64,000 nt of DNA from Nonomuraea fuscirosea (lineage in GTDB: Bacteria > Actinomycetota > Actinomycetes > Streptosporangiales > Streptosporangiaceae): the NCBI RefSeq assembly GCF_003001935.1, contig NZ_PVNG01000035.1:1-64000 (forward strand), written 5' to 3'. The notes beneath the pieces were generated by a model. It did no database searches and had not been told where the DNA came from. It was given only the letters and a program-made list of their open reading frames with translations. Below are positions 286 through 54,899 of the stretch, piece by piece; the stretch's first letter is position 1; the number at the start of each line of letters is the position of its first letter. Position numbers and translations under genes: made by a program.

Positions 286-681
286 GTGGGCGAGGTTCTT
301 GGGAAAGTACTGGTCGTGGATGACGATGAGGTCATCCGGCAGCTCATCGCGGTCAACCTGAACCTGGAGGGGTTCGAGGTGTCTACCGCCACGGATGGGC
401 AGGATTGTCTGGATCGGGTGCTCGACGTGATGCCTGATGTGATCACGCTCGATGTGATGATGCCGTTCCTGGACGGGTGGACGACGGCGCATCGGTTGCG
501 TACGGAGGAGGCCACCAGTCACATCAAGGTCGTGCTCATCACGGCCAGGGCTCAGGACGATGACCGGACCCGGGGGCTGGGGATCGGGGTGGACGCGTAC
601 TTGACCAAGCCGTTCGATCCGGCTGAGTTGATCGAGGTCGTGCGGGATCTGGCCTTGAGGGGTGGTCAGGGGCGTAGCTGA
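286..681 (+). CDS. orphan response regulator receiver-domain protein
   Basis: About 131 aa, almost entirely a CheY-like receiver domain with no output domain. It begins with the acidic pocket VLVVDDDE, carries the phospho-acceptor in TLDVMMPFLDG, the conserved Thr in VLITAR and the Lys in LTKPFDP. The GTG at 286 (VGEVLGKVLVV) is preferred because an upstream start at 253 only adds non-homologous residues. No histidine kinase is adjacent, so its partner is unknown; single-domain receivers usually act as phosphorelay shuttles or by protein-protein contact. Its stop codon lies in the first unit of a 31-bp tandem array (679-810). Confidence 0.85.
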   Translation: MGEVLGKVLVVDDDEVIRQLIAVNLNLEGFEVSTATDGQDCLDRVLDVMPDVITLDVMMPFLDGWTTAHRLRTEEATSHIKVVLITARAQDDDRTRGLGIGVDAYLTKPFDPAELIEVVRDLALRGGQGRS

Positions 682-810
682 GCCCAGCTTGCTGGTCCCT
701 GGTAGTCGGTCTTGGCGGTCGGGTGTCGGCTGTCCGTGGCTGAGGGCTGGTCGGGTGGCGCGTGCCGGGGTTGAGGGCTGGTGGGGTGGCGCGGGCGGGG
801 GTTGAGGGCG
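679..810 (+). repeat. 31-bp degenerate tandem array starting on the receiver gene stop codon
   Basis: The motif TGAG followed by a G-rich GGGCTGGTSGGGTGG stretch recurs at 679, 741, 772 and 803. Spacing is 31 bp between the last three and 62 (2 x 31) between the first two, with a decayed copy near 710. The TGA of the first unit is the stop codon of the upstream gene. Confidence 0.75.
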
Positions 811-875
811 CGCGTTCTTGGTGGATTGTTCGTACGCTGGCCGCATCGCCTCCTCTCCCCGAAAGGCCGGCCAAC

Positions 876-1544
876 GTGCGTAGCTCCATCTTCAACAACC
901 TCGACTCCCAGCAGCTCCCCCCGGGCTTCGTCCTGGAGAACCACAAGATGTTGCGGGTTCAGCTTCCGCACGAGGTGCTGGCCAAGCAGGGGTCCATGGT
1001 GGCCTTTCAGGGGCAGATGGACTTCGACTACGAGGGGTCGGGCGGGCTCGGGAAGCTGTTCAAGAAGGCCATGACGGGGGAGGGCGCCTCGCTCATGCGG
1101 GTACGGGGCGACGGGCTGCTGTATCTGGCGGACAACGCCGATGACATTCATCTGTTCTTCCTGGAGAACGACGGGCTCACGGTCAACGGGCGCAACCTGC
1201 TGGCGTTCCAGCCGCAGCTCACGTGGGACATCAAGCGGGTTCAGGGGGCCGGCGTGGCGGCCGGAGGGCTGTTCAACACGACGGTTGCCGGGACCGGGTG
1301 GGTGGCGGTGACGACGCACGGGACGCCGGTGTTGCTCGATGTGGCGCGGATGCCGACGTTCGCCGACGGGCAGTCGGCCGTGTGCTGGAGCACCGGGCTG
1401 GAGGTCGGGATCAACCGGACGATGAAGGTGGGGGCCTTGATCGGGCGGGGGAGTGGGGAGGCCATGCAGTTGGCGTTCAGGGGGCAGGGGTTCGTGTTGG
1501 TGCAGGCCAGTGAAGGGGCTCCTGTCCCGGCTCCCTCCGCATGA
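876..1544 (+). CDS. AIM24 family protein
   Basis: About 222 aa from a GTG at 876, which has GAAAGG ten bases upstream; the open frame extends to 762 but that part is intergenic repeat. The protein matches the AIM24/DUF124 beta-sandwich family: an N-terminal segment ending VLAKQGSMVAFQGQMDF, the glycine-rich MTGEGASLMRVRGDG loop, a central ENDGLTVNGRNLLAF and a C-terminal GSGEAMQLAFRGQGFVLVQ. Bacterial members have no firmly assigned activity; the yeast namesake is mitochondrial. No signal peptide or membrane segment is seen, so it is probably cytoplasmic. Confidence 0.85.
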   Translation: MRSSIFNNLDSQQLPPGFVLENHKMLRVQLPHEVLAKQGSMVAFQGQMDFDYEGSGGLGKLFKKAMTGEGASLMRVRGDGLLYLADNADDIHLFFLENDGLTVNGRNLLAFQPQLTWDIKRVQGAGVAAGGLFNTTVAGTGWVAVTTHGTPVLLDVARMPTFADGQSAVCWSTGLEVGINRTMKVGALIGRGSGEAMQLAFRGQGFVLVQASEGAPVPAPSA

Positions 1545-1581
1545 AGCACTTGAGGGTTCTCGATGCCATCCTCAGTAGACA

Positions 1582-1599
1582 GGTAATTAGCTAATTGCC
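1582..1599. promoter_or_regulatory. palindromic operator candidate upstream of the ArsR-YbaK pair
   Basis: AATTAGCTAATT (1585-1596) is a perfect 12-bp palindrome, extendable to an 18-bp imperfect one, in an AT-rich island within very GC-rich DNA. It lies 15 bases before the ArsR start and next to a CATAAT -10-like element (1599-1604), so a bound dimer would block initiation. ArsR-family regulators typically bind such sites; autoregulation is inferred. Confidence 0.55.
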
Positions 1600-1610
1600 A
1601 TAATGGCTTA

Positions 1611-2397: not shown

Positions 2398-2404
2398 TTC
2401 GAGG

Positions 2405-3424: not shown

Positions 3425-3532
3425 CGTCCGCTCTCCCGTCGTCAGCCCGCGCAGATCGTAGGACCGCGGGTGGCGCGCCGGGAAGAGTGACGATCAGGAC
3501 AGAGGCCTGACCTGGGGGTACAAATGTAAGTT

Positions 3533-4366: not shown

Positions 4367-4378
4367 TGGTTCAGCTCC

Positions 4379-4729: not shown

Positions 4730-4740
4730 GTTCCCCCTGA

Positions 4741-15626: not shown

Positions 15627-16250
15627 TGAGAGCGATGGTCGGCCGGCCAAGTGGTGGTCCGTTGATGGCAGGAGCCGGATGCCGGGGTGGGGAACCGCCG
15701 ATGGGGGCGGGGCTGGACGCCGGAGGTGAGGATCCGCTGCTGGGGACGGGGGCTGGAGTCGAGGTGAGACCCCGCTTATGGGACGGGCGCCGGAAGCTTG
15801 GGTGAGGGTTCGTCGAAGGTGGGGGTCGGGTGCAGGGATACGGGGTTCGTTGATGGCCTTGACGGCCTTGATGGCGGAGTCCGGGCCGCGACGGGAGGGC
15901 CCGATGGGCGAGCTGTGGGCGTGCATGGGGATCGGACGCCGGGGGTTGGGTCATTTATGGCGGGGTGGGGTTGGACGCGACGGCGCGTGCCTGATGGGGG
16001 AGCCGTGTGTGAGTGGGGTCGGATACGGGGTGAGGCCGTTGACAGTGGCGTCGGACCCGACGTCGAGTGCCTGAGACGTCGAGTGCCTGATGAGTAAGCC
16101 GGGTGTGCGGACGGGGGTGCGGTGATGGTGGGCCGGGCGTCTGGACCGAGGGCGCGAGCCGGGACACGGGGATGAGTGAGGCGCGTATGTGCACGGGGGT
16201 GCGGTGATGTGTGAGCCGTGTGCGGATGGGGGTGCGGTGATGGGTGAGTC
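15611..16250 (+). repeat. about 600-bp degenerate G-rich tandem array between DUF4956 and VTC genes
   Basis: No gene is seen in 15627-16239. Anchors of form CG(C/T)TGATG recur at 15621, 15660, 15696, 15735, 15773, 15811 and 15848, a spacing of 36-39 bp; the first contains the DUF4956 stop. Weaker copies continue to the VTC start. Within them GACGTCGAGTGCCTGA is duplicated exactly in tandem (16059-16074, 16075-16090) and GGGGGTGCGGTGATG occurs at 16113, 16195 and 16228, the last including the VTC ATG. The plus strand is strongly G-rich. Confidence 0.8.
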
Positions 16251-17040
16251 GTATGCCGATGCGTTGCTGGCGGGGGTCGCGGCCGGTATGCCGCCGATCG
16301 GGCTGGAGGAGGTGCCGGAGCTGATGAGCCGGGTCGATCGCAAATACCTCGTGACGGCCTCGACCATGGCCCGGCTCGCGGCCGAAGCGGGGGATCGGCT
16401 CTGTGTGCTGCGGATCGCCGGGCGGCGGCAGTTCCGCTACACCTCCACCTACTTCGACACCCCCGACCTGCTCACCTACCGCCAGCACCGCCAGGGCCGG
16501 CGACGCAGGTTCAAGCTCCGCACCCGGACCTACCTCGACGGGGGCGGCCGATGGCTGGAGCTCAAGCTCAGCGGCGCACGAGGCAGCACCGACAAACACC
16601 GCATCCCCTACGACGGGACGCCGAGCGGCACGCTCACGGAGGAGGCACTCGACTTCGTCCGCGACACGCTCCTCAGCGAGATGCGCCTCATCATGCCCGA
16701 GACGCTGGAGCCGGTGCTGGCCACCGACTACAGACGGGTGACGCTCATCGACCGGTCCGGCGGGGCCCGCCTCACCTGCGACACCAGCCTGCTGTGCCGA
16801 GACGGGTCGCGCAGCACTCCGGCTCGGGGCGACCTGGTCCTGCTGGAGTCGAAGTCGGCGGACGGGAAGGCGATGGTCGACACGCTGCTGCGCCGGTTGG
16901 GGGTGCGTCCGGTCAACGTGAGCAAATACTGCCTGGCGGTCGCCGCACTCCGCGACCTACCCGCCAACCGCTGGCACCCTGTCCTGCACCGCTACCTACC
17001 CCACCGCCCCGCTCCCCGCCAACCGCTCGTTGTCGGTTGA
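16240..17040 (+). CDS. polyphosphate polymerase (VTC) domain protein
   Basis: 266 aa from ATG 16240; upstream ATGs lie in repeat copies. A single VTC tunnel domain whose basic and acidic wall residues are all present: VDRKYLV, RYTSTYFDTPDL, RRRFKLRTRTYLD, WLELKL, DKHRIPYD, ATDYRRVTL, LVLLESKS and NVSKYCL. In yeast Vtc4 this fold makes polyphosphate from ATP; bacterial stand-alone VTC proteins pair with DUF4956 and often a CotH-like kinase. No CotH gene is in this window. Activity is inferred from the intact tunnel. The stop codon starts a 49-bp tandem array. Confidence 0.88.
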   Translation: MGESYADALLAGVAAGMPPIGLEEVPELMSRVDRKYLVTASTMARLAAEAGDRLCVLRIAGRRQFRYTSTYFDTPDLLTYRQHRQGRRRRFKLRTRTYLDGGGRWLELKLSGARGSTDKHRIPYDGTPSGTLTEEALDFVRDTLLSEMRLIMPETLEPVLATDYRRVTLIDRSGGARLTCDTSLLCRDGSRSTPARGDLVLLESKSADGKAMVDTLLRRLGVRPVNVSKYCLAVAALRDLPANRWHPVLHRYLPHRPAPRQPLVVG

Positions 17041-17200
17041 GGGCTGGATTCGCCGTCGTGTTGTTCGCTGATCGTCCGTTCCGGGTCGAGGGCAGGGTCC
17101 GCTGTGGTGTCGTATGGCGGCCGTCCGTTGCCGGCTGAGTGCGGGCTCGCCGGCCTGTTGCACTCCGGTCGGCCGTCTTCGCCGACTGCGGTGCCCAGCG
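17020..17200 (+). repeat. 49-bp degenerate tandem array starting on the VTC stop codon
   Basis: CGTTGTCGGTTGAG (17028), CGTTCCGGGTCGAG (17077) and CGTTGCCGGCTGAG (17126) are spaced exactly 49 bp apart, each followed by a GGGC...TCGC stretch, with a fading fourth copy near 17174. The TGA in the first is the VTC stop. Confidence 0.75.
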
Positions 17201-18344: not shown

Positions 18345-19019
18345 TCAGGTTTCTGTGTTGTCGGCGAAGCCGGTGCGGTAGGCGAAGACCACGGCTTGGA
18401 CGCGGTCGCGTAGGTCGAGTTTGGTGAGGATGCGGGAGACGTACGTGCGGACGGTCTCGAAGCTGATGACCAGTTCTGCGGCTATCTCGGCGTTGGACAG
18501 GCCGCGGGCGATCAGGCGTAGCACCTCGCGTTCGCGGGGGGCCAGGACGGCCAAGGGGTCCTCGGTGGCGGCAGGGGTCGAGGGGCGGAGGCGGTCGGCG
18601 AAGCGGCCGATGAGGGTGCGGGTCACGGTGGGGGAGAGCAGTGACTCGCCACGGGCGACGGTGCGAACGCCGTTCACCAGCTCCAGGAGGGGAGCGTCCT
18701 TGAGCAGGAAGCCGCTGGCGCCGGCGCGCAGGGCGTCGTAGACGTACTGGTCGACGTTGAACGTGGTCACGACCAGCACCTTCGGCGGTGCGATGATGCC
18801 GGGGCCGGCGATGCGTCTCGTCACCTCGATGCCGTCCATCAGGGGCATGTGGATGTCCATGACCACCACGTCGGGCTTCAGGGCGGTGACCGCCTCGACC
18901 GCGGCCGGGCCGTCGGCGGCCACGCCGATCACCGTCATGTCCGGCTGTGCGTCGAACGCCGTCTGGTAGCCGGTGCGGACGATCTCCTGGTCCTCGCAGA
19001 TCATGACGCGGATGGTCAT
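18345..19019 (-). CDS. NarL/LuxR-family response regulator
   Basis: 224 aa from ATG 19019, inside repeat copy 1 of the junction array. Receiver domain with MICEDQEIV, phospho-Asp in VVVMDIHMPLMDG, Thr in VVTTFN and Lys in FLLKDAPL; LuxR-type HTH (about 150-215) with LAPREREVLRLIARGLSNAEIA and VRTYVSRILTKLDLRDRVQ. Partner of the kinase upstream, but the two genes are separated by a 166-base repeat array rather than overlapping. Targets unknown. Confidence 0.93.
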   Translation of the reverse strand: MTIRVMICEDQEIVRTGYQTAFDAQPDMTVIGVAADGPAAVEAVTALKPDVVVMDIHMPLMDGIEVTRRIAGPGIIAPPKVLVVTTFNVDQYVYDALRAGASGFLLKDAPLLELVNGVRTVARGESLLSPTVTRTLIGRFADRLRPSTPAATEDPLAVLAPREREVLRLIARGLSNAEIAAELVISFETVRTYVSRILTKLDLRDRVQAVVFAYRTGFADNTET

Positions 19020-19206
19020 TCGGCACCGCCTGTGGGGGTCGGGGTCATTCGGCACCGCCTGCGGGCTGGTCTTCCGGCACCGGCTGTGGACGTCGTGGTC
19101 ATTCGGCGACGCTTACCAGGATCATGGTCATTCGACACCGACTGCGGGCTCAGTGGTGATTCGGCGACGGGTGCGGGCGTCCTGGTCATTCGGTGTCGCT
19201 TAGGGG
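19014..19206 (-). repeat. seven-copy 29-bp array built from the kinase/regulator junction
   Basis: GGTCATTCGG-type units start (plus strand) at 19014, 19043, 19068, 19097, 19126, 19155 and 19184: spacings 29, 25, 29, 29, 29, 29. On the coding strand the core is CCGAATGACC. The kinase stop TGA (19188-19186) is in copy 7 and the regulator start ATG (19019-19017) is in copy 1, at the same position of the unit. Five of the seven copies still carry ATGA. Confidence 0.92.
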
Positions 19207-20361
19207 GATTGACGCGCGGAGTTGGAAACCGCCGTCGGGTTGGTCGCTTGCGGTCAGCTCGCCGCCCAGGGCGTCTATGCGGCTGCGGAGGCCGGGCAGG
19301 CCGCGGCCGCCGGACAGGCCGCTTCTCGCGCCGACCGATACCGCGGCGGCGGCGTTCGTCACCTCGACCTCCACGTGGTCGTTCCGGTAGCCGACCCGCA
19401 CCGTGGTCGGGCTGCCTTCGGCGTATTTGACGGCGTTCGTCAGGCCCTCCTGGACCACGCGGTACACGGCCAGGCTCACGCCGACCGGGAGTGGGGGCTG
19501 GGCGCCGTCCTCCACCAGTTCGACCGGCTGGCCGCCGCTGCGGGTCTGTTCGACCAGGTCTCGTACGCTGCCCATGACAGGGGACGCCGACTCTCCGGTC
19601 GCCTCGAGTACGTCCAGCAGGTGGCGCAGTTCGGCCAGGGCGCGGCGGCCGGAGCCGCCGATCGTGGACAGTGCCGTGACCACCCGGTCCGGCGACGTGG
19701 CCACGAACTGGGTGGCGTCGGCCTGCACGACGATGCCGGTGACGTGGTGGGTCACCACGTCGTGCAGCTCGCGCGCGATGCGCGCCCGCTCGGCGGTGGT
19801 CGCGGCCACGGCGGCGAGCCGGCGGCGCTCGGCCTCCTGGAGTCGTTGCCCGCGGACGAAGGCGCCGCCCATCCAGCACGCGGCGAACAGCAGGTAGAAC
19901 ACCAGAAACTCGCTCAGCGTCCCCGGTGAGCCGAGCAGGAGCATGGCGACGCACAGGACGACGTACGCGGCCGACGACACGACGGTGATGGCGCGGCGGA
20001 ACCGCTCCTGGTGCGCGCCCGCCGAGTACAGCGCGACGTAGATCGTCACGGTGCCGAACTGCATCGGGTAGGCGAGCGTCTCGTGGACCACGAAGGCGGC
20101 GCCGTTGATCGCCAGGCACGCGGCGGGCCACCGGGTGCGTACGGCGAGCGGCAGCGTCTGGGCCAGGATCAGCACGAGCGTGAACGCGTCGGCGGGACGT
20201 TCCGGCAGGTCGCCGAACTGGACGCTCATGATCGTCAGCGCCGGTACGAACGCCAGCCCGGTGAAGCCGGCGGCCAGCCAGCGATCCCACACCGTGGCGT
20301 CGTAGACGCGCCAGACGTTCAGCAACCTGCGGAAGAGGTCGCCGGCCAAGGTCCCCGGCAT
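19186..20361 (-). CDS. sensor histidine kinase, HisKA_3 (NarL partner) type
   Basis: 391 aa. The N-terminal 170 residues form about five membrane helices, then a coiled linker (RLQEAERRRLAAV), the HisKA_3 H-box ERARIARELHDVVTHHVTG and a HATPase domain with N-box VQEGLTNAVKYA and GGRGLPGLRSRI. The G1 box is less typical than usual for the family, though such kinases often show this. It ends in SDTE, with the stop inside copy 7 of the junction array. Divergent from the TAP-like hydrolase. Confidence 0.9.
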   Translation of the reverse strand: MPGTLAGDLFRRLLNVWRVYDATVWDRWLAAGFTGLAFVPALTIMSVQFGDLPERPADAFTLVLILAQTLPLAVRTRWPAACLAINGAAFVVHETLAYPMQFGTVTIYVALYSAGAHQERFRRAITVVSSAAYVVLCVAMLLLGSPGTLSEFLVFYLLFAACWMGGAFVRGQRLQEAERRRLAAVAATTAERARIARELHDVVTHHVTGIVVQADATQFVATSPDRVVTALSTIGGSGRRALAELRHLLDVLEATGESASPVMGSVRDLVEQTRSGGQPVELVEDGAQPPLPVGVSLAVYRVVQEGLTNAVKYAEGSPTTVRVGYRNDHVEVEVTNAAAAVSVGARSGLSGGRGLPGLRSRIDALGGELTASDQPDGGFQLRASIPLSDTE

Positions 20362-22289: not shown

Positions 22290-22386
22290 TTCCGCGCGTC
22301 GGCCGGGTCAGCAGCTTCGAGGGTTGGTCGGATCCGCGGGTTTCGAGGGTCGGTCGGATCAGGAATTCCGCGGGTTGGTCGGCTCA
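22290..22386 (-). repeat. 25-26-bp array starting on the methyltransferase stop codon
   Basis: On the plus strand CG(C/A)GSGT(T/C)GGYCGG-N-TC(A/C) ends at 22386, 22361, 22335 and 22310 (spacings 25, 26, 25). The TCA of the first, read on the minus strand, is the TGA stop of the gene; the other three copies extend beyond it. Confidence 0.8.
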
Positions 22387-23424
22387 GGGGGGTCGGCGGG
22401 CTATGAGGACCTTCAAGGTGACCGGTTCGGTGAAGCGGCCGGTCGGGACGGCCGTCAGCAGCGCGGTGGTGAGGTCGCGTTCGAAGGCGGGGCGGCAGTC
22501 GCCGAGCAGCCGGCGCAGGGGCAGCGAGGTCGAGTACAGGTAACCGATGATCCGGTCCACGGTCCAGATCCGCTCGAACTCGTGGACCACCGGGGTGACG
22601 TCCCGGAACGCGGACCGGGCCAGCAACTCCTCGTGCGATTCAGGCTGCTGACCTGCGACGTCCTGCCGTCCGGCCGAGGTTCGCGGCGCGCTGGCGGTCT
22701 GTGGCTCGGCTGAGGTTCGCGGAGCGCGGGGGCTCTGTGGCTCGGTCGCACGGCGTCGTCCACCGTTGCTCCGCAGTTCGTCGCGCGTTCGGAGGCCGGA
22801 GCCGGAGCCGGAGCCGGGGCCGGGGCCGGGGCCGGGACTGAGGCGGGGGATGGGGCTGGAGCTCGGACCCGGGCTCGGGCTCAGGCCGGTGCTGGGGCGG
22901 GAGCTGGAGCTCGGGTTCGGGCTCTGGAGGGGGTACGAGGAGGGGGGCAGGTAGCGGTGTTGTACGTCTTCGATGACCGCCTGCCAGGGAGCCGCCGCCA
23001 GCGCCATGCAGCCGTCGTTGGCGATCACCAGCCCGCCCTCGTCCTCCACCACCCCCGTCAGCCCCCGCAGCACCCGCTCACGATCCGTCCAGTGGAACGA
23101 CCGTCCCATGGTCACCAGCCGGAAGCGCCCGAGCTCGCCCGCCAGATCGGCGGCGTCCCCTTGGATCCAGGTGAGGTTGCGCGCTCCGGCCGCGCGAGCC
23201 TGCTGGGCCGCCTGGGCGAGCATGCCGGGGTCGGGGTCCAGGCCGACCGCCTGCTCGACGTGCTCGGCCAGGGGGATGGTCAGCTGGCCGGTGCCGCAGC
23301 CGAGGTCGAGGGAGCGGCCGGTGCCGTTCAGGGCGAACCGGGTGACCACGTCGGAGAAGAATGCCTGCGGATAGCCGGGACGGAAACGGGCGTAGTAGGG
23401 GGCGGTGCCGGAGAAAAGACCCAT
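22384..23424 (-). CDS. class I SAM-dependent methyltransferase with a low-complexity insertion
   Basis: 346 aa. The N-terminal 165 residues are a Methyltransf_11/25-type Rossmann domain (LDLGCGTGQLTIPLA SAM loop, VGLDPDPGM, WIQGDAADL, MGRSFHWTD). Residues about 170-268 are a Ser/Pro/Gly and Arg/Thr/Ala-rich insertion, partly made of repeats, and the family sequence resumes at HEELLARSAFRDVTPVVHEFERIW. Homologues are generally about 250 aa, so the insertion is an addition. It starts six bases after the acyl-CoA dehydrogenase stop and is probably the last gene of the TetR-flanked operon. Substrate unknown. Confidence 0.85.
   Translation of the reverse strand: MGLFSGTAPYYARFRPGYPQAFFSDVVTRFALNGTGRSLDLGCGTGQLTIPLAEHVEQAVGLDPDPGMLAQAAQQARAAGARNLTWIQGDAADLAGELGRFRLVTMGRSFHWTDRERVLRGLTGVVEDEGGLVIANDGCMALAAAPWQAVIEDVQHRYLPPSSYPLQSPNPSSSSRPSTGLSPSPGPSSSPIPRLSPGPGPGPGSGSGSGLRTRDELRSNGGRRRATEPQSPRAPRTSAEPQTASAPRTSAGRQDVAGQQPESHEELLARSAFRDVTPVVHEFERIWTVDRIIGYLYSTSLPLRRLLGDCRPAFERDLTTALLTAVPTGRFTEPVTLKVLIARRPP
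22672..22845 (-). repeat. intragenic repeats inside the methyltransferase gene
   Basis: Two 36-bp copies (from 22672 and 22708) encode 12-residue units sharing APRTSA, and 22795-22843 is a run of GAGCCG/GGGCCG hexamers encoding Gly/Pro/Ser repeats. Both keep the reading frame. Confidence 0.75.
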
Positions 23425-25658: not shown

Positions 25659-25740
25659 CGCCGTCAGCTCCTTCCGTAAGGTGAGCGCTTCCGCCGCCGG
25701 CCACGGCCGTCGGCTGAGCGCGTCCGCTACCGGCCACCGC
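25636..25740 (-). repeat. three-copy array built from an ABC gene stop/start junction
   Basis: CCGGCCAC occurs at 25651, 25697 and 25730, each embedded in a TGAGCGC...CCGGCCAC(C/G)G context (plus strand); spacing 46 and 33 bp. On the coding strand the core is GTGGCCGGTAG: in one end copy its TAG is the fused permease-ATPase stop, in the other its GTG is the next gene's start. Confidence 0.85.
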
Positions 25741-27640
25741 TCTCAGCCCCTTCCGCGACATCCGTGACGTCGGAGGACGGCGCCGCCGCCGTCCCGTCCT
25801 GAGCCTGCGTGCGCGGATGCCAGCAGGCATAACGGCGACGGTCGTGGCCGTCCTCGAACAGCGGCGGCGCCTCCCGCTCGCAGCGTTCGTCCGCGTACGC
25901 GCACCGCGCCCGGAACGCGCACCCCTCGGGCAGGTCCACCAGGTCGGGCGGCCGGCCGGGGATGACCCGGAGCCGGTGGTGCACGGGGTCGGTCAACCGG
26001 GGCGCCGCCTGGAGCAGAGCCTCGGTGTACGGCATCCGGGGCCGGGCGAACACCTCGGCCGCAGGCCCCCGTTCGACCACCTTGCCGGCGTACATGACGA
26101 TCACCTCGTCCGCCCACCTGGCCACCACGGACAGGTCGTGGCTGACCAGGACCACGGCCATGTCCCGCTCCTCGCGCTGCCGGTGCAGCAGCCGCAGCAC
26201 CTGGTCCTGGATGGTCACGTCGAGCGCGGTGGTGGGCTCGTCCGCGAACAGCACGTCGGGCCGGCACGACAGCGCCATCGCGATCGTCACCCGCTGCCGC
26301 ATCCCGCCGGAGAGCTGGTGCGGGTAGCGGCGCAAGATCCGGACGGGATCGGGGATGCCGACGGAGGCCAGCAGCTTCGCCGCCTCCGCGCGGGCCTGCC
26401 TGCGGGTCAGGCTCATGTGCACCCGCAGCGGCTCCATGACCTGGGTGCCGATGGTGCGCACCGGGTTCAGCGCGGTCATCGGGTCCTGGAACACGGTGCC
26501 GAGCCGCGGTCCGAGCACCGAGCGCATCTCGGCGGCGGTGTAGGAGGTCAGGTCGTCGCCCGCCAGGTACACGTTCCCGCCCCGGACCGAGGTGCCGGGC
26601 AGCAGGCCCAGGATGGAGCGGATCAGCATGGACTTGCCCGATCCCGACTCGCCGACGATGGCCAGCGTCCGGCCGCGCTCCAGGGTGAAGGAGACCCCGT
26701 CCACCGCCTTGACCAGGCCGCGCGGCGTGACGAAGTGGGTGCGCAGGTCCTCGACCTGGAGCAGGACGTCGCGGACGGGGTGCGTGGTGGCGGGCAGCGC
26801 GGGGGCGGCCTGGCGCACCGGTTCGAGGCCGCTCTCCCGGACGTCCGTCAGCGACCGCAGCCGGTCGCCCACCAGGTTGAACGACAGCACGGTCAGGAAC
26901 ATGGCGATCGAGGGCGCCAGCACCACGTGCGGCGCGGTCTCCATCAGCGTGCGGCCCTCGTTGATCAGCCCGCCCCAGGTCGGGGTGGGCGCCTGGACGG
27001 ACAGGCCGAGGAAGGCCAGGCTGCCCTCGGCGACGACGACCACGGCCATGCCGATGAACGCGTACGACGCCGCCGGCACCGCCACGTTCGGCACGATCTC
27101 CCGCCACAGGATGCGCCGGTCACGGGTGCCGAGCACGCGGGCGGCCAGCACGAACTCGCGCTCGGCGAAGGTGAGGGTGGCGCCCCTGATGAGGCGGACC
27201 CAGGAGGGGACGCCGAGCACGCCGAGCACGATCAGCACGTTACGCAGGTTGGCGCCGGCGAAGGCGACCACGGCCAGCGCGAACACCAGTGCGGGGAACG
27301 CCTGCGCCACGTCGTTGACCGCCATGATGACCGCGTCCGCGGCCTTGCGCCGGTAGCCGGCCAGGATGCCGAGCGGGGCGCCGATGCCCAGGCCGAGCAG
27401 GACGGCGCCGATGCCGACGCCGAGGGAGACGCGGGCGCCGTACACGACCCTGCTGAGCACGTCGCGGCCGAGGCCGTCGGTGCCGAACGGGTGCGCGGCG
27501 CTGGGACCTGACTGCGGCGGCCCGGCGAGCGTCTCGTCGTAGCGGGCGAACGGCAGCAGGTCGGCCAGCAGCGCGGCGAGCAGGATCAGCCCGATCCAGC
27601 CGAGCGCCAGCCAGAAGCCGAGCCCTTGCCGCCTACGCAC
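25727..27640 (-). CDS. fused oligopeptide ABC permease-ATPase (DppC-DppD)
   Basis: 637 aa in one frame. Residues 1-275 are a DppC-type permease with about six helices and the loop ARVLGTRDRRILWREIVPNV; residues 285-610 an ABC ATPase with Walker A IVGESGSGKSMLI, signature LSGGMRQRVTIAMAL, Walker B VLFADEPTTALD and VLVSHDLSVV, ending in the Cys-rich CAFRARCAYADERC segment. Such fusions are known in actinobacteria. Overlaps the DppB-like gene by eight bases. The last residues AEGAESGGR precede a stop inside a repeat. Confidence 0.92.
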   Translation of the reverse strand: MRRRQGLGFWLALGWIGLILLAALLADLLPFARYDETLAGPPQSGPSAAHPFGTDGLGRDVLSRVVYGARVSLGVGIGAVLLGLGIGAPLGILAGYRRKAADAVIMAVNDVAQAFPALVFALAVVAFAGANLRNVLIVLGVLGVPSWVRLIRGATLTFAEREFVLAARVLGTRDRRILWREIVPNVAVPAASYAFIGMAVVVVAEGSLAFLGLSVQAPTPTWGGLINEGRTLMETAPHVVLAPSIAMFLTVLSFNLVGDRLRSLTDVRESGLEPVRQAAPALPATTHPVRDVLLQVEDLRTHFVTPRGLVKAVDGVSFTLERGRTLAIVGESGSGKSMLIRSILGLLPGTSVRGGNVYLAGDDLTSYTAAEMRSVLGPRLGTVFQDPMTALNPVRTIGTQVMEPLRVHMSLTRRQARAEAAKLLASVGIPDPVRILRRYPHQLSGGMRQRVTIAMALSCRPDVLFADEPTTALDVTIQDQVLRLLHRQREERDMAVVLVSHDLSVVARWADEVIVMYAGKVVERGPAAEVFARPRMPYTEALLQAAPRLTDPVHHRLRVIPGRPPDLVDLPEGCAFRARCAYADERCEREAPPLFEDGHDRRRYACWHPRTQAQDGTAAAPSSDVTDVAEGAESGGR

Positions 27641-35111: not shown

Positions 35112-35161
35112 GGAATCTCCTTGAGAATAGAAACCCCGGCCTTGTGGGCGGGACGGAAAGT

Positions 35162-35224
35162 CGGACATGTGCCGATGGAACCCTCGCGGGAGGCCGGACA
35201 GGTGCCGCCGAATCCCCTCACGGG
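35162..35224 (-). repeat. two 33-bp copies starting on the uronate dehydrogenase stop codon
   Basis: CGGACA-TGTGCCG...CCCTCGCGGG (35162-35190) and CGGACA-GGTGCCG...CCCCTCACGGG (35195-35224) are spaced 33 bp. The TCA in the second (35218-35220) is the minus-strand TGA stop of the gene; the first copy is outside the gene. Confidence 0.7.
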
Positions 35225-36144
35225 TGGCTGTGCGGGTCGGCCGCCCCGAGGAGAGGGGAATCGTCCTTCAGCTCGGTGCGCCAGCTGCGCTTGGGCTGCC
35301 AGCCGAGCAGGCGCTCCGCCTTGGCGGTCGAGAAGGCGGGCGCGGTGCCGGTGAGCCCGGCCGCGAACGGCTCGGTGCCGGGCACGACCTGGGGGAGCAG
35401 GTCCGCCAGCGGCTTCCTGGCCAGCGCGTCGGCGGCGCCGGCGAAGAAGATCTCGCCGTTCGGCAGCTCGGGCAGCGCCTCGCTGAGCACGCCGATCATC
35501 TCGGCGGCGTCGCGCGAGTCGATGTAGTTGAACAGCGACACCCCGCCCAGCTCGGGCCGGTCGAGCCGCTCCCGCACCGTGTGACCGGCCTGCGTCGGCG
35601 CGCCCGCCCACTCCTCGGGCGGGATCACGAAGCACGGCCGCACCGCGGCCAGCTTGGTCTTCCCCGCGCGGGCGAAGGCCCGCATCGTCTGCTCGGCGGT
35701 CACCTTGGACAGGTTGTACGCGTTCCACGGCAGAACAGGATGTTCCTCATCGATCGGCAGGTACTGCGGCGCCCAGCCGCCCGGCGCGCCGTACCCCATG
35801 ACGGTGGGACTGCTGGCCACCACCACGCCGGGCACGCCCAGGGCCACCGCCGCCTCGCACACGTTGAACGCGAGCCGGGTGTTGACCTTGAAGATGACCG
35901 ATTCGGGGTAACTGAACGGGGTGGCGATCGCGGCGAGGTGGATCACCGACTCCGGCCGGAACCTGGCGATCACCTCGAACGTCTCACCCGTGTCGGTGAG
36001 ATCGGCCGGTAACGTGACGGCCGCCTCCGCCGGGGTGCCCGGGGCGCGGTCCACGCCGATGACCTCGTGCCCGGCCGCCGCGAGCGTGCTGACCACGCTG
36101 CGGCCGAGGCGTCCTGCGCTTCCGGTGACGAGGACTCTGCTCAC
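35218..36144 (-). CDS. NAD-dependent epimerase/dehydratase family, uronate dehydrogenase-like
   Basis: 308 aa from GTG 36144 with GAAGGAG nine bases upstream; the frame opens at 36180. Extended SDR: nucleotide loop VTGSAGRLGRSV, VIGVDRAP, and catalytic YNLSK preceded by SSPTVMGYG. Uronate dehydrogenases of this family oxidise galacturonate or glucuronate to the aldarolactone, which would feed the enolase-superfamily enzyme and KdgD downstream. First gene of the minus-strand catabolic operon. Confidence 0.75.
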   Translation of the reverse strand: MSRVLVTGSAGRLGRSVVSTLAAAGHEVIGVDRAPGTPAEAAVTLPADLTDTGETFEVIARFRPESVIHLAAIATPFSYPESVIFKVNTRLAFNVCEAAVALGVPGVVVASSPTVMGYGAPGGWAPQYLPIDEEHPVLPWNAYNLSKVTAEQTMRAFARAGKTKLAAVRPCFVIPPEEWAGAPTQAGHTVRERLDRPELGGVSLFNYIDSRDAAEMIGVLSEALPELPNGEIFFAGAADALARKPLADLLPQVVPGTEPFAAGLTGTAPAFSTAKAERLLGWQPKRSWRTELKDDSPLLGAADPHSHP

Positions 36145-42955: not shown

Positions 42956-44740
42956 TCAGTTCCCCTGCTTCCAGGTGGCGATCAGCTTGTCGTAGTCGAC
43001 CGTCTCCGGCTTGCCGCGCTCGTCGGCCAGTTTCGGCGCGGGCGCGCCCGGCTGGTCGAACCAGTACTGGGCGGGGCGCTCCTGGTTGAGCTTGGGCGCG
43101 CACTGGCCGCCGTACCCCTGCCGCTCGCGCGACAGGCGCTCCAGGCGGGCCAGGATGTCGTCCTGCTGCTTGGCCAGGTTGTCCATCGACTGCTGCGGCG
43201 TGGTCTCACCGGTCACGGCGGTGGCCACGTTCTGCCACCACAGCTGCGCCAGCTTCGGGTAGTCGGGCACGTTCGTGCCGGTCGGCGTCCACTGCACGCG
43301 GGCCGGCGAGCCGTAGAACTCGATCAGGCCGCCGTACTTCTCGGCGTTGTCGGCGAAGTAGTCGCTCTTGATGTCCGACTCGCGGATGAAGGTCAGGCCG
43401 GTGATCGACTTCTTCAGCGAGACCGTCTTCGACGTGACGAACTGCGCGTACAGCCAGGCCGCGGCCCTGCGGTCCTGCGGGGTGTTCTTCAGCAGCGTCC
43501 ACGAGCCGGCGTCCTGGTAGCCCAGCTTGTTGCCGTCCTTCCAGTACGCGCCGTGCGGGCTCGGCGCGATGCGCCACTTGGGCGTGCCGTCGCCGTTGAC
43601 GACCGGCAGCCCCTCCTTGGTCATGTCGGCGGTGAACGAGGTGTACCAGAAGATCTGCTGGGCGACGGCGCCCTGGGCGGGGACGGGGCCCGCCTCGCTG
43701 AAGTTCATGCCCGCGGCTTCCCTGGGCGCGTACTTCTTCAGCCAGTCCACGTACTTGGTGAGCGCGTAGACCGCGGCCGGGCCGTTGGTGTCGCCGCCGC
43801 GGGTCACCGAGGAGCCGACCGGGCGGCAGTTCTCCACCCTGATGCCCCAGTCGTCCACCGGCAGGCCGTTGGGGATGCCGGGGTCGCCGTTGCCCGCCAT
43901 GGACAGCCAGGCGTCGGTGAAGCGCCAGCCAAGCGACGGGTCCTTGCGGCCGTAGTCCATGTGGCCGTAGACCTTCTTGCCGTCGATGGTGCCGTCGCCG
44001 TTGACCTTGGTGGTGAAGAACTCGGCGATGTCCTCGTAGGCCGCCCAGTTGACCGGGACGCCGAGGTCGTAGCCGTACGCGGCCTTGAACTGCTTCTTGA
44101 TCTCCGGATCGGTGAACCAGTCGTAGCGGAACCAGTAGAGGTTCGCGAACTGCTGGTCGGGGAGCTGGTAGATCTTCTTGTCCGGGCCGGTGGTGAAGCT
44201 GATCCCGATGAAGTCGTCCAGGTCGAGCGTGGGGGAGGTGACGTTCTTGCCCTCGCCGGCCATGTAGTCCGACAGCGGCACCACGTAGTCGCCGCGCGAG
44301 TGGGTGCCGATCAGGTCGGAGTCGTTGACGTAGGCGTCGTAGATGTTCTGGTCGCCCTGGATCTGCGTCTGCAGCTTCTCGACGACGTCGCCCTCCTGGA
44401 TCAGGTCGTGCTTGATCCTGATCCCGGTGATCTCGGCGAACGCCTTGGCGAGCTGCTGCGACTCGTACTCGTGCGTGGTGATGGTCTCGGAGACCACGTT
44501 GATCTGCATGCCCCGGTACGGCGCCGCGGCCTTGATGAACCAGTCCATCTCCGCGAGCTGCTGCTCCTTGGACAGCGTGCTCGGGGTGAACTGCTCCGTC
44601 ACCCATCTCTGGGCCGCGGCCCTGCCGTCGGCCTCCTTGAAGTCGCTGGTGGGCTTGTCCGCGCCCTGGGTGCAGCCTGCCGCTAACAGGACGAGCACTG
44701 TCAGACCTGCGGCCGCGGACCTGCCTGCCCGATGCCTCAT
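42956..44740 (-). CDS. glpV: glycerol-type ABC substrate-binding lipoprotein GlpV
   Basis: 594 aa. Lipobox LLAAGC-T (Cys23). The long SBP1 form (about 570-590 residues) with ETITTHEYESQQLAKAFAEITGI, QGDQNIYDAYVNDSDLIGTH, and the C-terminal repeated-domain end WWQNVATAVTGETTPQQSMDNLA is characteristic of GlpV of the Rhizobium-type glycerol transporter GlpSTPQUV. Binding of glycerol is inferred from family and operon, not shown. Last gene of the six-gene operon. Confidence 0.85.
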   Translation of the reverse strand: MRHRAGRSAAAGLTVLVLLAAGCTQGADKPTSDFKEADGRAAAQRWVTEQFTPSTLSKEQQLAEMDWFIKAAAPYRGMQINVVSETITTHEYESQQLAKAFAEITGIRIKHDLIQEGDVVEKLQTQIQGDQNIYDAYVNDSDLIGTHSRGDYVVPLSDYMAGEGKNVTSPTLDLDDFIGISFTTGPDKKIYQLPDQQFANLYWFRYDWFTDPEIKKQFKAAYGYDLGVPVNWAAYEDIAEFFTTKVNGDGTIDGKKVYGHMDYGRKDPSLGWRFTDAWLSMAGNGDPGIPNGLPVDDWGIRVENCRPVGSSVTRGGDTNGPAAVYALTKYVDWLKKYAPREAAGMNFSEAGPVPAQGAVAQQIFWYTSFTADMTKEGLPVVNGDGTPKWRIAPSPHGAYWKDGNKLGYQDAGSWTLLKNTPQDRRAAAWLYAQFVTSKTVSLKKSITGLTFIRESDIKSDYFADNAEKYGGLIEFYGSPARVQWTPTGTNVPDYPKLAQLWWQNVATAVTGETTPQQSMDNLAKQQDDILARLERLSRERQGYGGQCAPKLNQERPAQYWFDQPGAPAPKLADERGKPETVDYDKLIATWKQGN

Positions 44741-44756
44741 CGTTCCGCTCCTCTTC

Positions 44757-44800
44757 TGTCGGCCTCACATGCCTGTCAGCCCCGAATACCTGTCAGCCCC
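44757..44800 (-). repeat. three 17-bp copies starting on the glpU stop codon
   Basis: GTCAGCCCC occurs at 44792 and 44775 (17 bp apart) and GTCGGCCTC at 44758. The TCA at 44793-44795 is the minus-strand TGA stop of glpU; the others are intergenic. The third merges with the glpV ribosome-site region. Confidence 0.7.
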
Positions 44801-45068
44801 ACCTGCCGATCACGAGCGCCACCAGCAGCGCGCAGCCGAGCGCGAGCCACATGGACAGGTCGGTGACGGCGATCCAGCCGGCCAGGACGACGGCCGCGCT
44901 GATCAACCCGATGTAGAGCCGGTCGCCCCGGTCGGTCTCGATCCGCAGGAAGCCCCGCCTGGCCACGGGAGGGGAGATCCGGCCCCAGACCGCCATCGCG
45001 GCCAGCAGCACGACCAGCCCGGCGAACACCAGGGCGGTGGGGACGGTCCAGACCATCCAGTCGAGCAC
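44793..45068 (-). CDS. glpU: DUF2160 small membrane protein GlpU
   Basis: 91 aa from GTG 45068. Three hydrophobic helices (WMVWTVPTALVFAGLVVLLAAMAVWG, YIGLISAAVVLAGWIAV, WLALGCALLVALVIG) with PPVARRGFLRIETDRGDRLYIG between; matches DUF2160, the small subunit encoded only in glycerol ABC operons and of unproven function. Sits between glpQ and glpV as in rhizobia. Confidence 0.88.
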   Translation of the reverse strand: MLDWMVWTVPTALVFAGLVVLLAAMAVWGRISPPVARRGFLRIETDRGDRLYIGLISAAVVLAGWIAVTDLSMWLALGCALLVALVIGRWG

Positions 45069-51491: not shown

Positions 51492-53060
51492 GTGGAAGGG
51501 GCGTGGGTGCAGCGGATCCTGTGGCTCGTCGTGGCGGTCGCCTTCGTGGCGGGCATGGTCATCCCCCGAGACGTCGAGCCGGAGGAGGAGTGCCCGGCCC
51601 GCGACACCCGCGTCACGGCCCCCTACGCGGTGACCGGCTACTGGGTGATGCCGCGCGCCGACCTGTGCGTCACGCGGCGCATGGTCGAGGCCGTCCACGC
51701 CATCGGCGGCGACACGCTGATCACCTTCGGCCCCCGGTTAACCGCCGGTCAGGACCCCGGCTTCGACGGCTGTCTCCTCGACGGCCGGCCGTGCGCCGAG
51801 GTGCCAGGCAAGCGGATCCGCCAGGTCTACTCGTACGCGAGCAGCGAGGAGTTCGGGCCTGGCCTGCTCCGCTGCCCCGGGATCGACCGGCGGTTCGAGA
51901 CCGGCGACCGGGTCGTCTACCGGCTCTCGCTGGCCGGGTCCTGCTCCGACGCCGAGCACGACCTCGTCCTGATCTCCACCGACGGCGACGGGCTCGGCCA
52001 CCTGATGCGCGAGGCTAGCGCGTACGGGATGACGGTCTTCCCCGGCCTGCCCGCCGCGCCGCAGCGGGCGGCCAAGCCGTGGGAGCCCGACCTCGGCCAC
52101 CTCGCCGCGCTCAACGCCTTCACCGCGCGGGTGCTGGCCGACTACGGGCGGCGGTTCGGCGGGCTGAGCGCCTTCGGCGGGATGTACCAGTCGTTCGAGC
52201 TGGCCATGCGGTCGCGGTCCGGCCGCGATCCGATCATCGAGCTGTACGCGGCCCAGCACAAGGTGGTCGCCGCCGCGTTGCCGGGGAAGAAGCTGGTGGT
52301 CAGCCCGTACATCGACGCGCGAAAGGGGCGCGGCTTCCCGCCCGCGCAGGCGGGGGAGGGGCTGGCGGACATCGCGGCGACCCGCGCCGGCCTGCCCATG
52401 GCGGTCGCCGTGCAGGACGGGCGAGGCACCGGCAAGGTGCCGGTGTACGCGCCGCATGAGGCCGGGGCCGAGGTCGCGCCCCGGCTGGTGCCGGTCGTGG
52501 GCGAGGTGAGCAACGCGGAGGCGTACCACGGCTCCACCGGCGACTACGTCGAGGCGGCGGCGCGGCGGGTGCCGGACGGGGTGGAGCTCTGGGTGAACGT
52601 GGAGGGCTTCGAACCCACGCCCGCCCCCGGGGAGTGCGGGCGGCTCGACCCGCTGCCGCCGCGCGGGCGGACCACGAAGAGCCGGCTCGACCTCCAGGTC
52701 ATGGCGGCGGGGCCGCAGGCCGCGAAGGTCATCTCGTACGGGTGGGACCCGTTCTTCACCTGCCAGTCCCGCTACGACACGCCGTCGCTGGCCGACGACA
52801 TCGCGGCCGGGTGGCAGCAGCCGATCATAGTGAACGCGTACCGGAAGGAGCTCGGCGGGCGGCCCGGGGTCCTCGTCGAGGGCCACAACCTGCGCGGGGG
52901 GACGCTGAGCTTCGCGGGGGTGGCGGTGCGGCAGGAGTGGTACGGACGGGGCCGGCTCGAATCGGCCTGGGCCCCCTACACGCCCGCGGCCCCCTGGACC
53001 CCGGTCACGGCCACCAACGCGGCCGGCCACTCCAGCACGAACCCATACGTGCTGCCTTAG
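51492..53060 (+). CDS. secreted DUF4434-type (glycosidase-fold) protein
   Basis: 522 aa; GTG 51492 or GTG 51507. A short N-terminal hydrophobic helix (ILWLVVAVAFVAGMVI) is a signal or anchor. The centre (VTGYWVMPR, VEAVHAIGGDTLITFGPR, ASAYGMTVFPGLP, LVVSPYID, VAVQDGRG and VELWVNVEGFEP) fits the DUF4434 TIM-barrel group, predicted glycosidases. Ten or so cysteines suggest disulphides. Function unknown. The stop codon is in the first unit of a 26-bp array. Confidence 0.7.
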   Translation: MEGAWVQRILWLVVAVAFVAGMVIPRDVEPEEECPARDTRVTAPYAVTGYWVMPRADLCVTRRMVEAVHAIGGDTLITFGPRLTAGQDPGFDGCLLDGRPCAEVPGKRIRQVYSYASSEEFGPGLLRCPGIDRRFETGDRVVYRLSLAGSCSDAEHDLVLISTDGDGLGHLMREASAYGMTVFPGLPAAPQRAAKPWEPDLGHLAALNAFTARVLADYGRRFGGLSAFGGMYQSFELAMRSRSGRDPIIELYAAQHKVVAAALPGKKLVVSPYIDARKGRGFPPAQAGEGLADIAATRAGLPMAVAVQDGRGTGKVPVYAPHEAGAEVAPRLVPVVGEVSNAEAYHGSTGDYVEAAARRVPDGVELWVNVEGFEPTPAPGECGRLDPLPPRGRTTKSRLDLQVMAAGPQAAKVISYGWDPFFTCQSRYDTPSLADDIAAGWQQPIIVNAYRKELGGRPGVLVEGHNLRGGTLSFAGVAVRQEWYGRGRLESAWAPYTPAAPWTPVTATNAAGHSSTNPYVLP

Positions 53061-53112
53061 TCACGAACCCGTACGTGCCCGCCTTGGTCGCGAACCGGCA
53101 CGTGCTGCTTCA
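53036..53112 (+). repeat. 26-27-bp array starting on the DUF4434 stop codon
   Basis: ACGAACCCATACGTGCTGCC (53037), ACGAACCCGTACGTGCCCGC (53063) and GCGAACCGGCACGTGCTGC (53090) are spaced 26 and 27. The first includes the last codons of the gene with its TAG stop; the third runs into the stop of the convergent arginase-family gene. Confidence 0.8.
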
Positions 53113-54021
53113 CTTTCCGGTTCCGGTCAGTGCGGCGACCAGGATGTCGGCCAGCAGTGCGGCCTGACTGCCGTCCTCGTCCAGGTCGGGGTCCAGGATC
53201 GTCACCTCCAGCCCGGCGGCTCCGGGCAGCGCCAGCAGCCCGCGCAGCAGCTCGGTGAGCTGGGCGGCGTCGAGTCCGCCCGGGGTGGGGGAGTCGACGG
53301 CGGGCAGGATGGACGGGTCGAGCACGTCCGCGTCCACGTGGATCCAGAACCCGTCGAGCTCGTCACGGCCGAGCACCTGCGTGGCGCGCTCGATCGCCAG
53401 GTCGCCGCCGGGGCTTCCGGGGCTTCCGGGGACGTAGGCCAGCCCGCTGTCCGCGATGTCCCGCAGGTCCTCCTCGTCCCGTACGCCCAGCACGATCACG
53501 TCCTCGTCCCTGACGTACGGCCGCAGCCCGCCGATGTCGGTCAGGTAGTCCTCGCCCCGGCCGGTGACCAGCGCCAGATCCTCACCGGCCGCCGAGCCGA
53601 CGTGCGGGGAGTTGCCCAGGTGGCGGAAGTCGGCGTGCGCGTCCAGGTACGCCAGCCCGTACCGGCCGGCTTCACGCAGCGCCAGCGCGGGGCCGAGCAG
53701 GATCGAGCAGTCGCCGCCGAGCAGAACGGGGAACCCGCCGTCCCGCCTGATGCCGCTCACCCGGTCGGCCAGGGCGCGGGCGTAGGCGGCGATGGCGGGC
53801 CCGTTGCGCACGCCGTCGCCCGGCTTCCATGTGGCCACGTAGCGGGGCGGGACGAGCGCGCCCGCGTCGTCCGCGCCGAGCCGGCGCACGAGCCCGGCGT
53901 CCCGCAGCGCCCACGGGGCCTTGTAGCACCCGGGGACGACGTCGGGGGCCGGCGGGCGCAGACCGAGGTTGGACGGGGCATCGAGGACGACCAGACGTCT
54001 GTCAGTGGTTATAGTGTTCAT
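53110..54021 (-). CDS. arginase/agmatinase-family ureohydrolase
   Basis: 303 aa from ATG 54021. The Mn-binding motifs are present: GGDCSILLG, LDAHADFR, HVDADVLDPS, with SPTPGGL. Could be arginase, agmatinase, formimidoylglutamase or guanidinobutyrase; without an amino-acid catabolic neighbour it is left general. Divergent, by 28 bases, from the CGNR gene, so promoters overlap. Confidence 0.88.
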   Translation of the reverse strand: MNTITTDRRLVVLDAPSNLGLRPPAPDVVPGCYKAPWALRDAGLVRRLGADDAGALVPPRYVATWKPGDGVRNGPAIAAYARALADRVSGIRRDGGFPVLLGGDCSILLGPALALREAGRYGLAYLDAHADFRHLGNSPHVGSAAGEDLALVTGRGEDYLTDIGGLRPYVRDEDVIVLGVRDEEDLRDIADSGLAYVPGSPGSPGGDLAIERATQVLGRDELDGFWIHVDADVLDPSILPAVDSPTPGGLDAAQLTELLRGLLALPGAAGLEVTILDPDLDEDGSQAALLADILVAALTGTGK

Positions 54022-54049
54022 AGTCCTGACGCTAGCAAGAGGAGAGCGA

Positions 54050-54820
54050 ATGCGCCAGTACGCCGAGACCGGCCTCGTGACGATCGACCTGGCCAACACA
54101 TGGGACGAATACCTGGACGACCCGGAACGCCTACCGGACGTTTCCTCCCTACACCGCTTCTGCATGGAACTAGGCGTGCCGGCGCTCTCCGACCCCGTTG
54201 CCCTACCAGGCGACTCGGATCCCGACGCCGATCCTGCGGACGTGCCGGGCGTCTCTGATCCGGATGCCGACCTCGTGGGTGTGCCGGGCGACTCCGAGCC
54301 GCGCGCCGTTCCTGCGGACGTGCTGGGCGACTCCGAGCCCGATGCCGAGTCGGTGGGCACGGCGAGGGAGCCCGATCCCGGGGCCGGTCCGGTGGGCACG
54401 GCGAGGGAGTCCGTTCCCGGTGCTGGTCCGGTGAGCCCGGCGGATCTGGACGAGGTGCGGGCCGTGCGGTCGCGGTTGCGGGAGGTCCTGGACGGCGATC
54501 CGGCGCAGCGGGCGCGCGCCCTGGCGCGATGGGTGGAGGAGGCGCCGATGCGCGCGGTCGTGGCGGAGTCGGCCGGCACGCCGGTCCTGCGGCTCGCCGG
54601 CCCCCCGGCCGCCACCCTCGGTCAGCGGTTGACGGTGCGGGCGGTGACGGAACTGCTGGACCTCGCCGCGGCGGGCGACTGGGACCGGCTGCGGCTGTGC
54701 GCGGCGAGCCCCTGCCAGGACGCCTTCGTCGACAGAAGCCGCCCGGGCCGGCGCCAGTTCTGCTCGACCCGCTGCGCCAACCGCGCCCACGCCGCCGCCT
54801 CCCGGGCCCGCCACCGCTGA
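54050..54820 (+). CDS. CGNR zinc-finger protein with an internal 13-residue repeat
   Basis: 256 aa from ATG 54050 with AGAGGAGAG. N-terminal ABATE-like region (YAETGLVTIDLANTWDEYLDDPERLPD, about 1-50), then six tandem 13-residue units (53-130), then the remainder of ABATE and the C-terminal CGNR finger (about 218-256): CAASPCQDAFVDRSRPGRRQFCSTRCANRAH, all four Cys present. These proteins are thought to be DNA-binding regulators. The repeat splits the ABATE domain, which normally runs without interruption. Stop codon is in the first unit of a 37-38-bp array. Confidence 0.85.
   Translation: MRQYAETGLVTIDLANTWDEYLDDPERLPDVSSLHRFCMELGVPALSDPVALPGDSDPDADPADVPGVSDPDADLVGVPGDSEPRAVPADVLGDSEPDAESVGTAREPDPGAGPVGTARESVPGAGPVSPADLDEVRAVRSRLREVLDGDPAQRARALARWVEEAPMRAVVAESAGTPVLRLAGPPAATLGQRLTVRAVTELLDLAAAGDWDRLRLCAASPCQDAFVDRSRPGRRQFCSTRCANRAHAAASRARHR
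54206..54439 (+). repeat. in-frame 39-bp minisatellite, six copies
   Basis: Residues 53-130 are six 13-residue units: PGDSDPDADPADV, PGVSDPDADLVGV, PGDSEPRAVPADV, LGDSEPDAESVGT, AREPDPGAGPVGT and ARESVPGAGPVSP. Divergence increases to the 3' side. Confidence 0.85.
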
Positions 54821-54899
54821 CCGGGCAGCGCCGCCCCTGCGCGCACCCGTCCCCTGACCGCCCACGCCGCCGCTTCCCGGACCCGTCACCACTGACCGT
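54783..54899 (+). repeat. 37-38-bp array starting on the CGNR stop codon
   Basis: CTGACCG recurs at 54817, 54854 and 54892. The copy ending at 54822 includes the last codons and stop; the third unit (from about 54860) repeats GCCCACGCCGCCGC and CCCGG-CCCG nearly exactly, the middle one is decayed. Confidence 0.75.

Follow-up and report, generated by a model that had tools for sequence, protein, structure and literature searches.

Tandem duplications across gene ends and the appearance of intergenic spacers in Nonomuraea fuscirosea

The window analysed here is a stretch of 64 000 nucleotides (contig C35, NZ_PVNG01000035.1, positions 1–64000) from the 12.18-Mb genome of Nonomuraea fuscirosea, which is in 93 contigs; its subject is a set of short tandem arrays lying on or just past the stop codons of genes. 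Sixty genes are called in the window by a home-made codon-based gene finder, whose later retraining changed a few starts and added one small gene. The first-pass annotation had named ten gene ends at which an array begins on the stop, and all ten coordinates are ends of called genes. Stop-crossing repeats were scored by self-alignment, the first copy being required to span the stop, with shuffled downstream DNA as the control (1000 shuffles for the named stops); arrays were also mapped with Tandem Repeats Finder (TRF). At eight of the ten (17040, 19186, 22384, 25727, 35218, 44793, 53060 and 54820) head-to-tail copies cross the stop with scores of 37–64, which none of 1000 shuffles reaches. At 681 and 15626 the stop-crossing repeat is weak (score 27, reached by 16/1000 shuffles, and score 29, reached by 12/1000) and the arrays mapped by TRF start 36 and 51 bp beyond the stop, so the claim that arrays begin on the stops stands for eight gene ends and not for these two. 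The unit sizes given earlier agree broadly with those found here, whereas the estimate that one gene in six carries such an array was somewhat high: a score of at least 36 is found at 8 of the 60 window stops and at 118 of the 1115 stops in a 1.264-Mb sample of the genome (the window, included in this count, and 400 kb each of contigs C1, C2 and C3).

One of the arrays lies between the genes of a two-component pair on the reverse strand. A sensor histidine kinase gene (19186..20361; Pfam HisKA_3 and HATPase_c) has its stop inside the first of 6.4 copies of a 29-bp unit (19013..19193; TRF; score 62), which consists of the kinase tail, its TGA and the start of the response regulator gene downstream (18345..19019; Pfam Response_reg and GerE); the spacer measures 166 bp. 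Also on the reverse strand, a 33-bp repeat (25659..25748; score 50) crosses the stop of an ABC permease/ATPase gene of the oligopeptide-transporter type (25727..27640; Pfam) and is accompanied by a 68-bp spacer. A further 33-bp repeat (35155..35244; score 42) crosses the stop of an epimerase-family gene, followed by a 106-bp spacer and a DHDPS-family gene. The two remaining reverse-strand arrays have 25-bp units in 2.9 copies across stop 22384 (22316..22388; TRF; score 63) and, over the stop of a DUF2160 gene, 16–17-bp units (44730..44801; score 37), of which the sequence reads as three copies. The forward strand carries a 49-bp repeat across stop 17040 (17016..17147; score 54), 2.8 copies of a 27-bp unit spanning the TAG of a DUF4434 gene (53036..53108; TRF; score 57) and a 36/75-bp repeat that spans the TGA ending a CGNR zinc-finger gene (54784..54898; TRF; score 64), as well as the two TRF arrays that lie beyond their stops, a 31-bp array in 3 copies past 681 (717..809) and a 38–39-bp array past 15626 (15677..15794).

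Relatives are represented by one genome per species (N. jabiensis is G010 and N. parvosata G015). For the gene at 23431–24654 the nearest orthologues are those of named Nonomuraea species. At the kinase/regulator junction the two genes overlap by 4 bp in N. parvosata, G018 and G024; in G016 the DNA past the stop is equally compact, and the 339-bp gap called there seems to reflect a wrong start call. The 29-bp unit is single-copy in four relatives, and the array copy beside the regulator matches the kinase tail of N. parvosata at 23 of 26 bases. At 25727 the genes overlap by 11 bp in seven of ten relatives, the remainder having called gaps of 31, 43 and 48 bp, and likewise by 11 bp in N. gerenzanensis; in the window, the final copy, adjoining the downstream gene, matches the gene tail of a relative. 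At both loci the spacer is made up of decayed copies of a junction that overlaps in most relatives.

A single unit in at least one relative is found at 19186, 25727, 44793, 53060 and 54820. The 17-bp unit at 44793 is present once in N. gerenzanensis and N. jabiensis, followed by the same ribosome-binding-site-like stretch, and three times in the window. At 53060 the unit is single in G002 and N. jabiensis has a different 17-bp array; at 54820 the sole orthologue compared, in G002, has the same gene tail in single copy. Orthologues of the gene ending at 17040 carry other arrays in G024 (23 bp) and N. jabiensis (42 bp), so that three species have three different arrays, and those in N. parvosata, L152, L153 and N. 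gerenzanensis have no array at threshold. In N. gerenzanensis the orthologue of the gene ending at 15626 bears its own repeat across the stop (score 56). For the gene at 22384–23424, the pieces compared contain no reciprocal orthologue with more than 55% identity. The junction at 35218 overlaps in six of six relatives, by 4 bp in G002, N. jabiensis, N. parvosata, G024 and L159 and by 1 bp in L153, and by 4 bp in N. gerenzanensis. Array copy number differs between species, and the arrays do produce spacers, as the first-pass annotation had suggested. The N. gerenzanensis record used (NZ_LT559118.1; L273, L274) is 11.85 Mb long and chromosome-like, yet it is titled ‘plasmid I’ and has ten annotated features.

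The link between repeat and spacer extends beyond the window. Syntenic co-directional junctions of seven Nonomuraea genomes gave 882 pairwise comparisons. Where two junctions are equal in length within 5 bp, a stop-crossing repeat is present in 2/524 of each member; where they are 6–24 bp apart, in 2/163 of the longer and 1/163 of the shorter members; and where they are at least 25 bp apart, in 49/195 of the longer against 6/195 of the shorter members. The same material was grouped by state (683 junction instances in 207 families), a junction being called newly spaced if it has a spacer of at least 20 bp here, an overlap in at least one relative and a length difference of at least 25 bp. A stop-crossing repeat is found in 9 of the 17 newly spaced junctions, compared with 4/183 of the long-spaced ones (20–200 bp here and never below 20 bp in the relatives compared) and 5/242 of the overlapping ones. 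This contrast has a Fisher p of about 1e-8 on instances that are not independent; because the instances share species pairs and families (one family contributes three of the 17 and another two) this value overstates the evidence, but the contrast is still large. A wider set of 24 expanded junctions includes 11 with a stop-crossing repeat. At two window loci directly, and across the genus in the statistics, junction duplication is linked with the birth of spacers separating genes that overlap in relatives.

We consider it likely that slippage-like duplications survive where no protein is harmed, and that those spanning a stop codon or a stop/start overlap give rise to a spacer. Short tandem duplications (units of about 12–75 bp) would arise often in these genomes of high G + C content (high GC), probably by slippage between short direct repeats, and would persist where they are harmless. 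When a duplication covers a stop, the first copy would keep the original stop and the upstream protein would be unchanged; when it also covers the next start, as at an overlap of the ATGA type, the downstream gene would start in the last copy and its protein, too, would be unchanged. An overlapping or abutting junction would in this way become a spacer filled with decaying gene-end copies. The stop codon would be a permissive boundary and not a seed, and starts would presumably be shielded by promoters and ribosome-binding sites.

A different expectation follows if the stop codon, or the end of transcription, is itself a mutational hotspot that seeds duplication. Spaced stops, defined by 60 bp or more of free downstream DNA, number 527 in the 1.264-Mb sample. 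Of these, 88/527 score at least 36; a score of at least 40 is reached at 75 of them, compared with 5/527 after shuffling, 23/658 starts and 19/540 points deep within genes. Under uniform placement in the intergenic DNA of C1 (400 kb), 6.3 stop-crossing arrays are expected and 17 observed, as a hotspot would predict, while start-crossing arrays number 0 against 6.8 expected; the corresponding figures for the window are 2 against 1.1 and 1 against 1.7. TRF arrays in the full sample cross a stop in 53 cases, a start in 8 and both in 5. The different arrays that three species carry at the stop of the gene ending at 17040 would suit a hotspot as well. The distribution of repeats around the stop does not. 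Among genes followed by 100 bp or more of free DNA, the anchor point lies within a repeat in 15/353 cases at 300 bp inside the gene, 7/353 at −200, 28/353 at −20 and 51/353 at the stop, and then in 75/353 at +20, 81/353 at +40, 79/353 at +60, 66/292 at +80 and 50/232 at +100, which amounts to 2–4% inside genes, 14% at the stop and 21–23% from +20 to +100. TRF coverage climbs smoothly past gene ends from about 0.01 to 0.13, and in gaps of at least 250 bp a repeat is present at 9/104 stops against 18/104 positions at +80. Since density is still rising past the stop, the stop forms the shoulder of a zone rich in arrays, and there is no peak. The profile rejects seeding at the stop as the main cause, and we regard a hotspot as very improbable, although the 5′ edges of TRF arrays have about double the density within the final 20 bp of genes (22, against 11, 17, 9, 13 and 6 in the five 20-bp bins that follow); we read this excess as a putative pile-up at the coding boundary together with slower decay of the coding first copy. 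Convergent gene ends carry stop-crossing repeats about twice as often as co-directional ones (46/214 against 29/313, summed counts), as expected if promoters and ribosome-binding sites constrain the DNA before a start. Position, which had been proposed as the common factor, is borne out in that stop-crossing repeats lie far above shuffles and above uniform placement in C1, and enrichment on stops holds against all intergenic DNA with its promoter sides included; the enrichment does not hold against the DNA just downstream of stops, which is richer still.

The units themselves are specific to their loci. Elsewhere in the sample there is no match for 129 of the 131 non-coding arrays, nor for 48 of the 49 stop-crossing arrays with a period of at least 15 bp, and the array at 19186 has one weak 41-bp match in the whole 12.18-Mb genome. 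This bears out the earlier statement that the sequences are unrelated and do not form one dispersed element. A dispersed family resembling mycobacterial interspersed repetitive units (MIRUs), inserting at stop/start overlaps, would account for the junction position, which resembles that of MIRUs in the available text of PMC12548453; on the locally unique units it is refuted as a general explanation for the sample, and we hold it to be the least probable of the readings considered.

Perfect two-copy duplications were surveyed in 2.98 Mb (parts of seven Nonomuraea genomes, N. gerenzanensis and 22 named loci, whose family membership we assume). In non-coding DNA the identity extends past one unit by a mean of 4.4 bp for periods of 10–15 bp (n = 42), 7.4 bp for 16–24 bp (n = 22) and 10.6 bp for 25–60 bp (n = 24), where 0.84 bp is expected if microhomology plays no part. 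The excess points to short flanking homology and thus to slippage-like events, so that a slippage-like origin, one half of the suggestion of slippage or repair seeded at transcription ends, fits, and the seeding (51/353 at the stop, fewer than at +20 to +60) does not. In coding DNA the period of 74 of 79 perfect duplications is divisible by 3, and selection therefore filters duplications. Ku is present in the genome; blunt fill-in with end joining is nevertheless not favoured, because the flanking homology of the perfect duplications exceeds chance, a measure that ascertainment may bias. MutS_V has no match in this genome and is present in 11 of 14 control genomes. Loops as large as these units are not known to be a substrate of MutS, and its loss is kept as a lead at most.

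The frequency of stop-crossing repeats was compared between sets as the fraction of spaced stops scoring at least 40, for which shuffled controls give 0–1.4%. The fraction for the present genome is 75/528 in this comparison. Nonomuraea relatives have 8/107 (G024), 11/102 (N. jabiensis), 21/119 (N. parvosata) and 8/54 (other named Nonomuraea); N. gerenzanensis has 9/73 (shuffled 3/219) and other Streptosporangiaceae 12/85. High-GC Acidimicrobiia and other loci give 6/93. Plasmid controls are at 4/95 in Streptomyces, 1/33 in Azospirillum (its starts 2/43), 0/51 in Methylobacterium and 0/59 in Rhodococcus; Escherichia coli is at 0/68, and lower-GC Acidimicrobiia and others at 0/131 (loci of up to 8 kb dropped). 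High GC alone is not enough, as the high-GC plasmid controls are low in a comparison whose control sets are small and in four cases plasmids. The arrays are ordinary in kind, being minisatellites, but they are unusually frequent in this family and unusual in their link to spacer birth.

Several observations weigh against duplication, neutral persistence and spacer birth as the general course of events. Eight of the 17 newly spaced junctions have no stop-crossing repeat at threshold, of which two have weaker repeats (shuffle p 0.002 and 0.006). These junctions were grouped by state and not polarized on a tree, and the direction of change is well supported in only part of the 17; the family that provides two of the nine positives has a single overlapping species, in which the overlap could be the newer state, and if at least two overlapping relatives are required the repeat is found in 5 of 10. 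The tail of a relative matches the new spacer (p ≤ 0.01, best of up to four relatives) in just 6 of the 24 expanded junctions. At 35218 the spacer has no match at p ≤ 0.01 to the tail of any relative and the upstream gene is itself altered at its end, so this is not a clean junction duplication. Coding perfect duplications extend past one unit much as the non-coding ones do (means 4.0, 5.6 and 9.5 bp), and remnants of older arrays may inflate the extension. Besides the excess of 5′ edges described above, density at the stop is below the downstream plateau (51 against 75–81 of 353), which implies that stop-crossing copies are tolerated not quite as well as intergenic ones. In G024 the stops are no higher than its deep coding points (3/39); such points are 5/48 in N. 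parvosata, and with numbers as small and noisy as these the per-genome figures are rough. Gene starts come from the home-made predictor, and some called gaps, among them that of G016, look like start errors. What we infer is which way most junctions changed, that slippage was responsible and that the duplications are nearly neutral.

In another reading the arrays are selected, as terminators, as RNA structures or as spacers with a regulatory role. They part gene pairs that overlap in relatives, such as the kinase and regulator, which should weaken translational coupling, and in Mycobacterium tuberculosis a spacer array upstream of fpg1 correlates with expression, according to the accessible part of PMC2734929. 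The DNA after array stops folds no better than that after others, with a mean z of −0.69 (n = 51) compared with −1.16 (120 sampled of 259 non-array stops), and z is below −2 at 16% of array stops against 31% of the others. As a group, array stops have no stable hairpin beyond that expected from composition in these folding z-scores, with 16% still below −2, and a terminator or RNA structure gains no support from the comparison, in which folding is the one regulatory effect examined. G/C skew is small in both groups (−0.032 at array and −0.019 at other stops), so a G-rich transcribed strand is set aside as negligible, although the GC content past array stops is the higher of the two (0.740 against 0.683). 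Arrays also differ between species or are absent. Selection for such roles is therefore unlikely, if less so than a hotspot.

Arrays of this kind have partial precedents. In the portion of PMC2734929 available, the rnc–fpg1 junction (variable-number tandem repeat locus VNTR3239/ETR-F) holds 279–358 bp of tandem repeats in the M. tuberculosis complex and 1–54 bp in the other mycobacteria tabulated. It is like the present loci in being short elsewhere and filled with repeats in the complex, the repeats being restricted to the junction; it differs in that its repeats are exact, start 40 bp past the stop and vary between strains, and it is a single locus discussed there as possibly adaptive for expression and not as an instance of general spacer birth. 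Minisatellites and variable-number tandem repeats in general share the degenerate head-to-tail units of 12–75 bp, whereas the arrays here are tied to DNA downstream of stops and their copy-number differences are known between species. A MIRU is present at senX3–regX3, which is likewise a two-component pair. The likeness to MIRUs lies in units at stop/start junctions of co-directional genes, found here at 19186, 25727 and 35218, and it is limited by the greater frequency of arrays at convergent ends. MIRUs are, moreover, one dispersed family of apparently mobile units, inserting at start codons with −4 coupling in the text available (PMC12548453), whereas nearly every array tested here is locally unique and shares no unit with others.

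In the sections available of a study of overlapping genes in E. coli and relatives (PMC4161906), published work on the creation of overlaps is said to leave their loss without a model. The event considered is the same, the separation of an overlapping pair, but shifts of the stop codon are proposed, and the word ‘duplication’ has no hits in the main text. A simulation of overlap origin left indels aside in the text seen (PMC3887535), and a term search of a paper on short spacers (PMC2784483) finds no ‘duplication’. Among the open-licence matches listed, as titles, abstract openings and passages, no description of tandem duplication as a route of overlap loss was found; minisatellites are known, and in the literature searched to this extent we have not seen overlap loss by junction duplication described. 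Tandem duplication of the junction would supply a route for the event named as lacking a model in those sections of PMC4161906. By this route overlap is lost in one step, both proteins can stay intact and a readable fossil is left, so that the sequence allows rate, age and effect on translational coupling to be measured. More tentatively, and with the balance somewhat against it, duplication of stop–start junctions could be the main route by which overlaps separate in Streptosporangiaceae, with much intergenic DNA having begun as gene-end copies; if true, it would amount to a general mechanism by which intergenic DNA arises in high-GC bacteria.

Other tandem repeats in the window lie at a start or inside genes. 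A rare start-crossing case is a two-copy duplication of 33 bp (16195–16261) over the called start at 16237, a start call that may be wrong. The gene at 22384–23424 contains internal tandem repeats of 36 bp (22671–22745) and 42 bp (22825–22924). The CGNR zinc-finger gene (54050–54820) contains two internal blocks of 39-bp tandem repeats (54209–54442; 3.6 and 2.4 copies), a period of 13 codons that keeps the frame.

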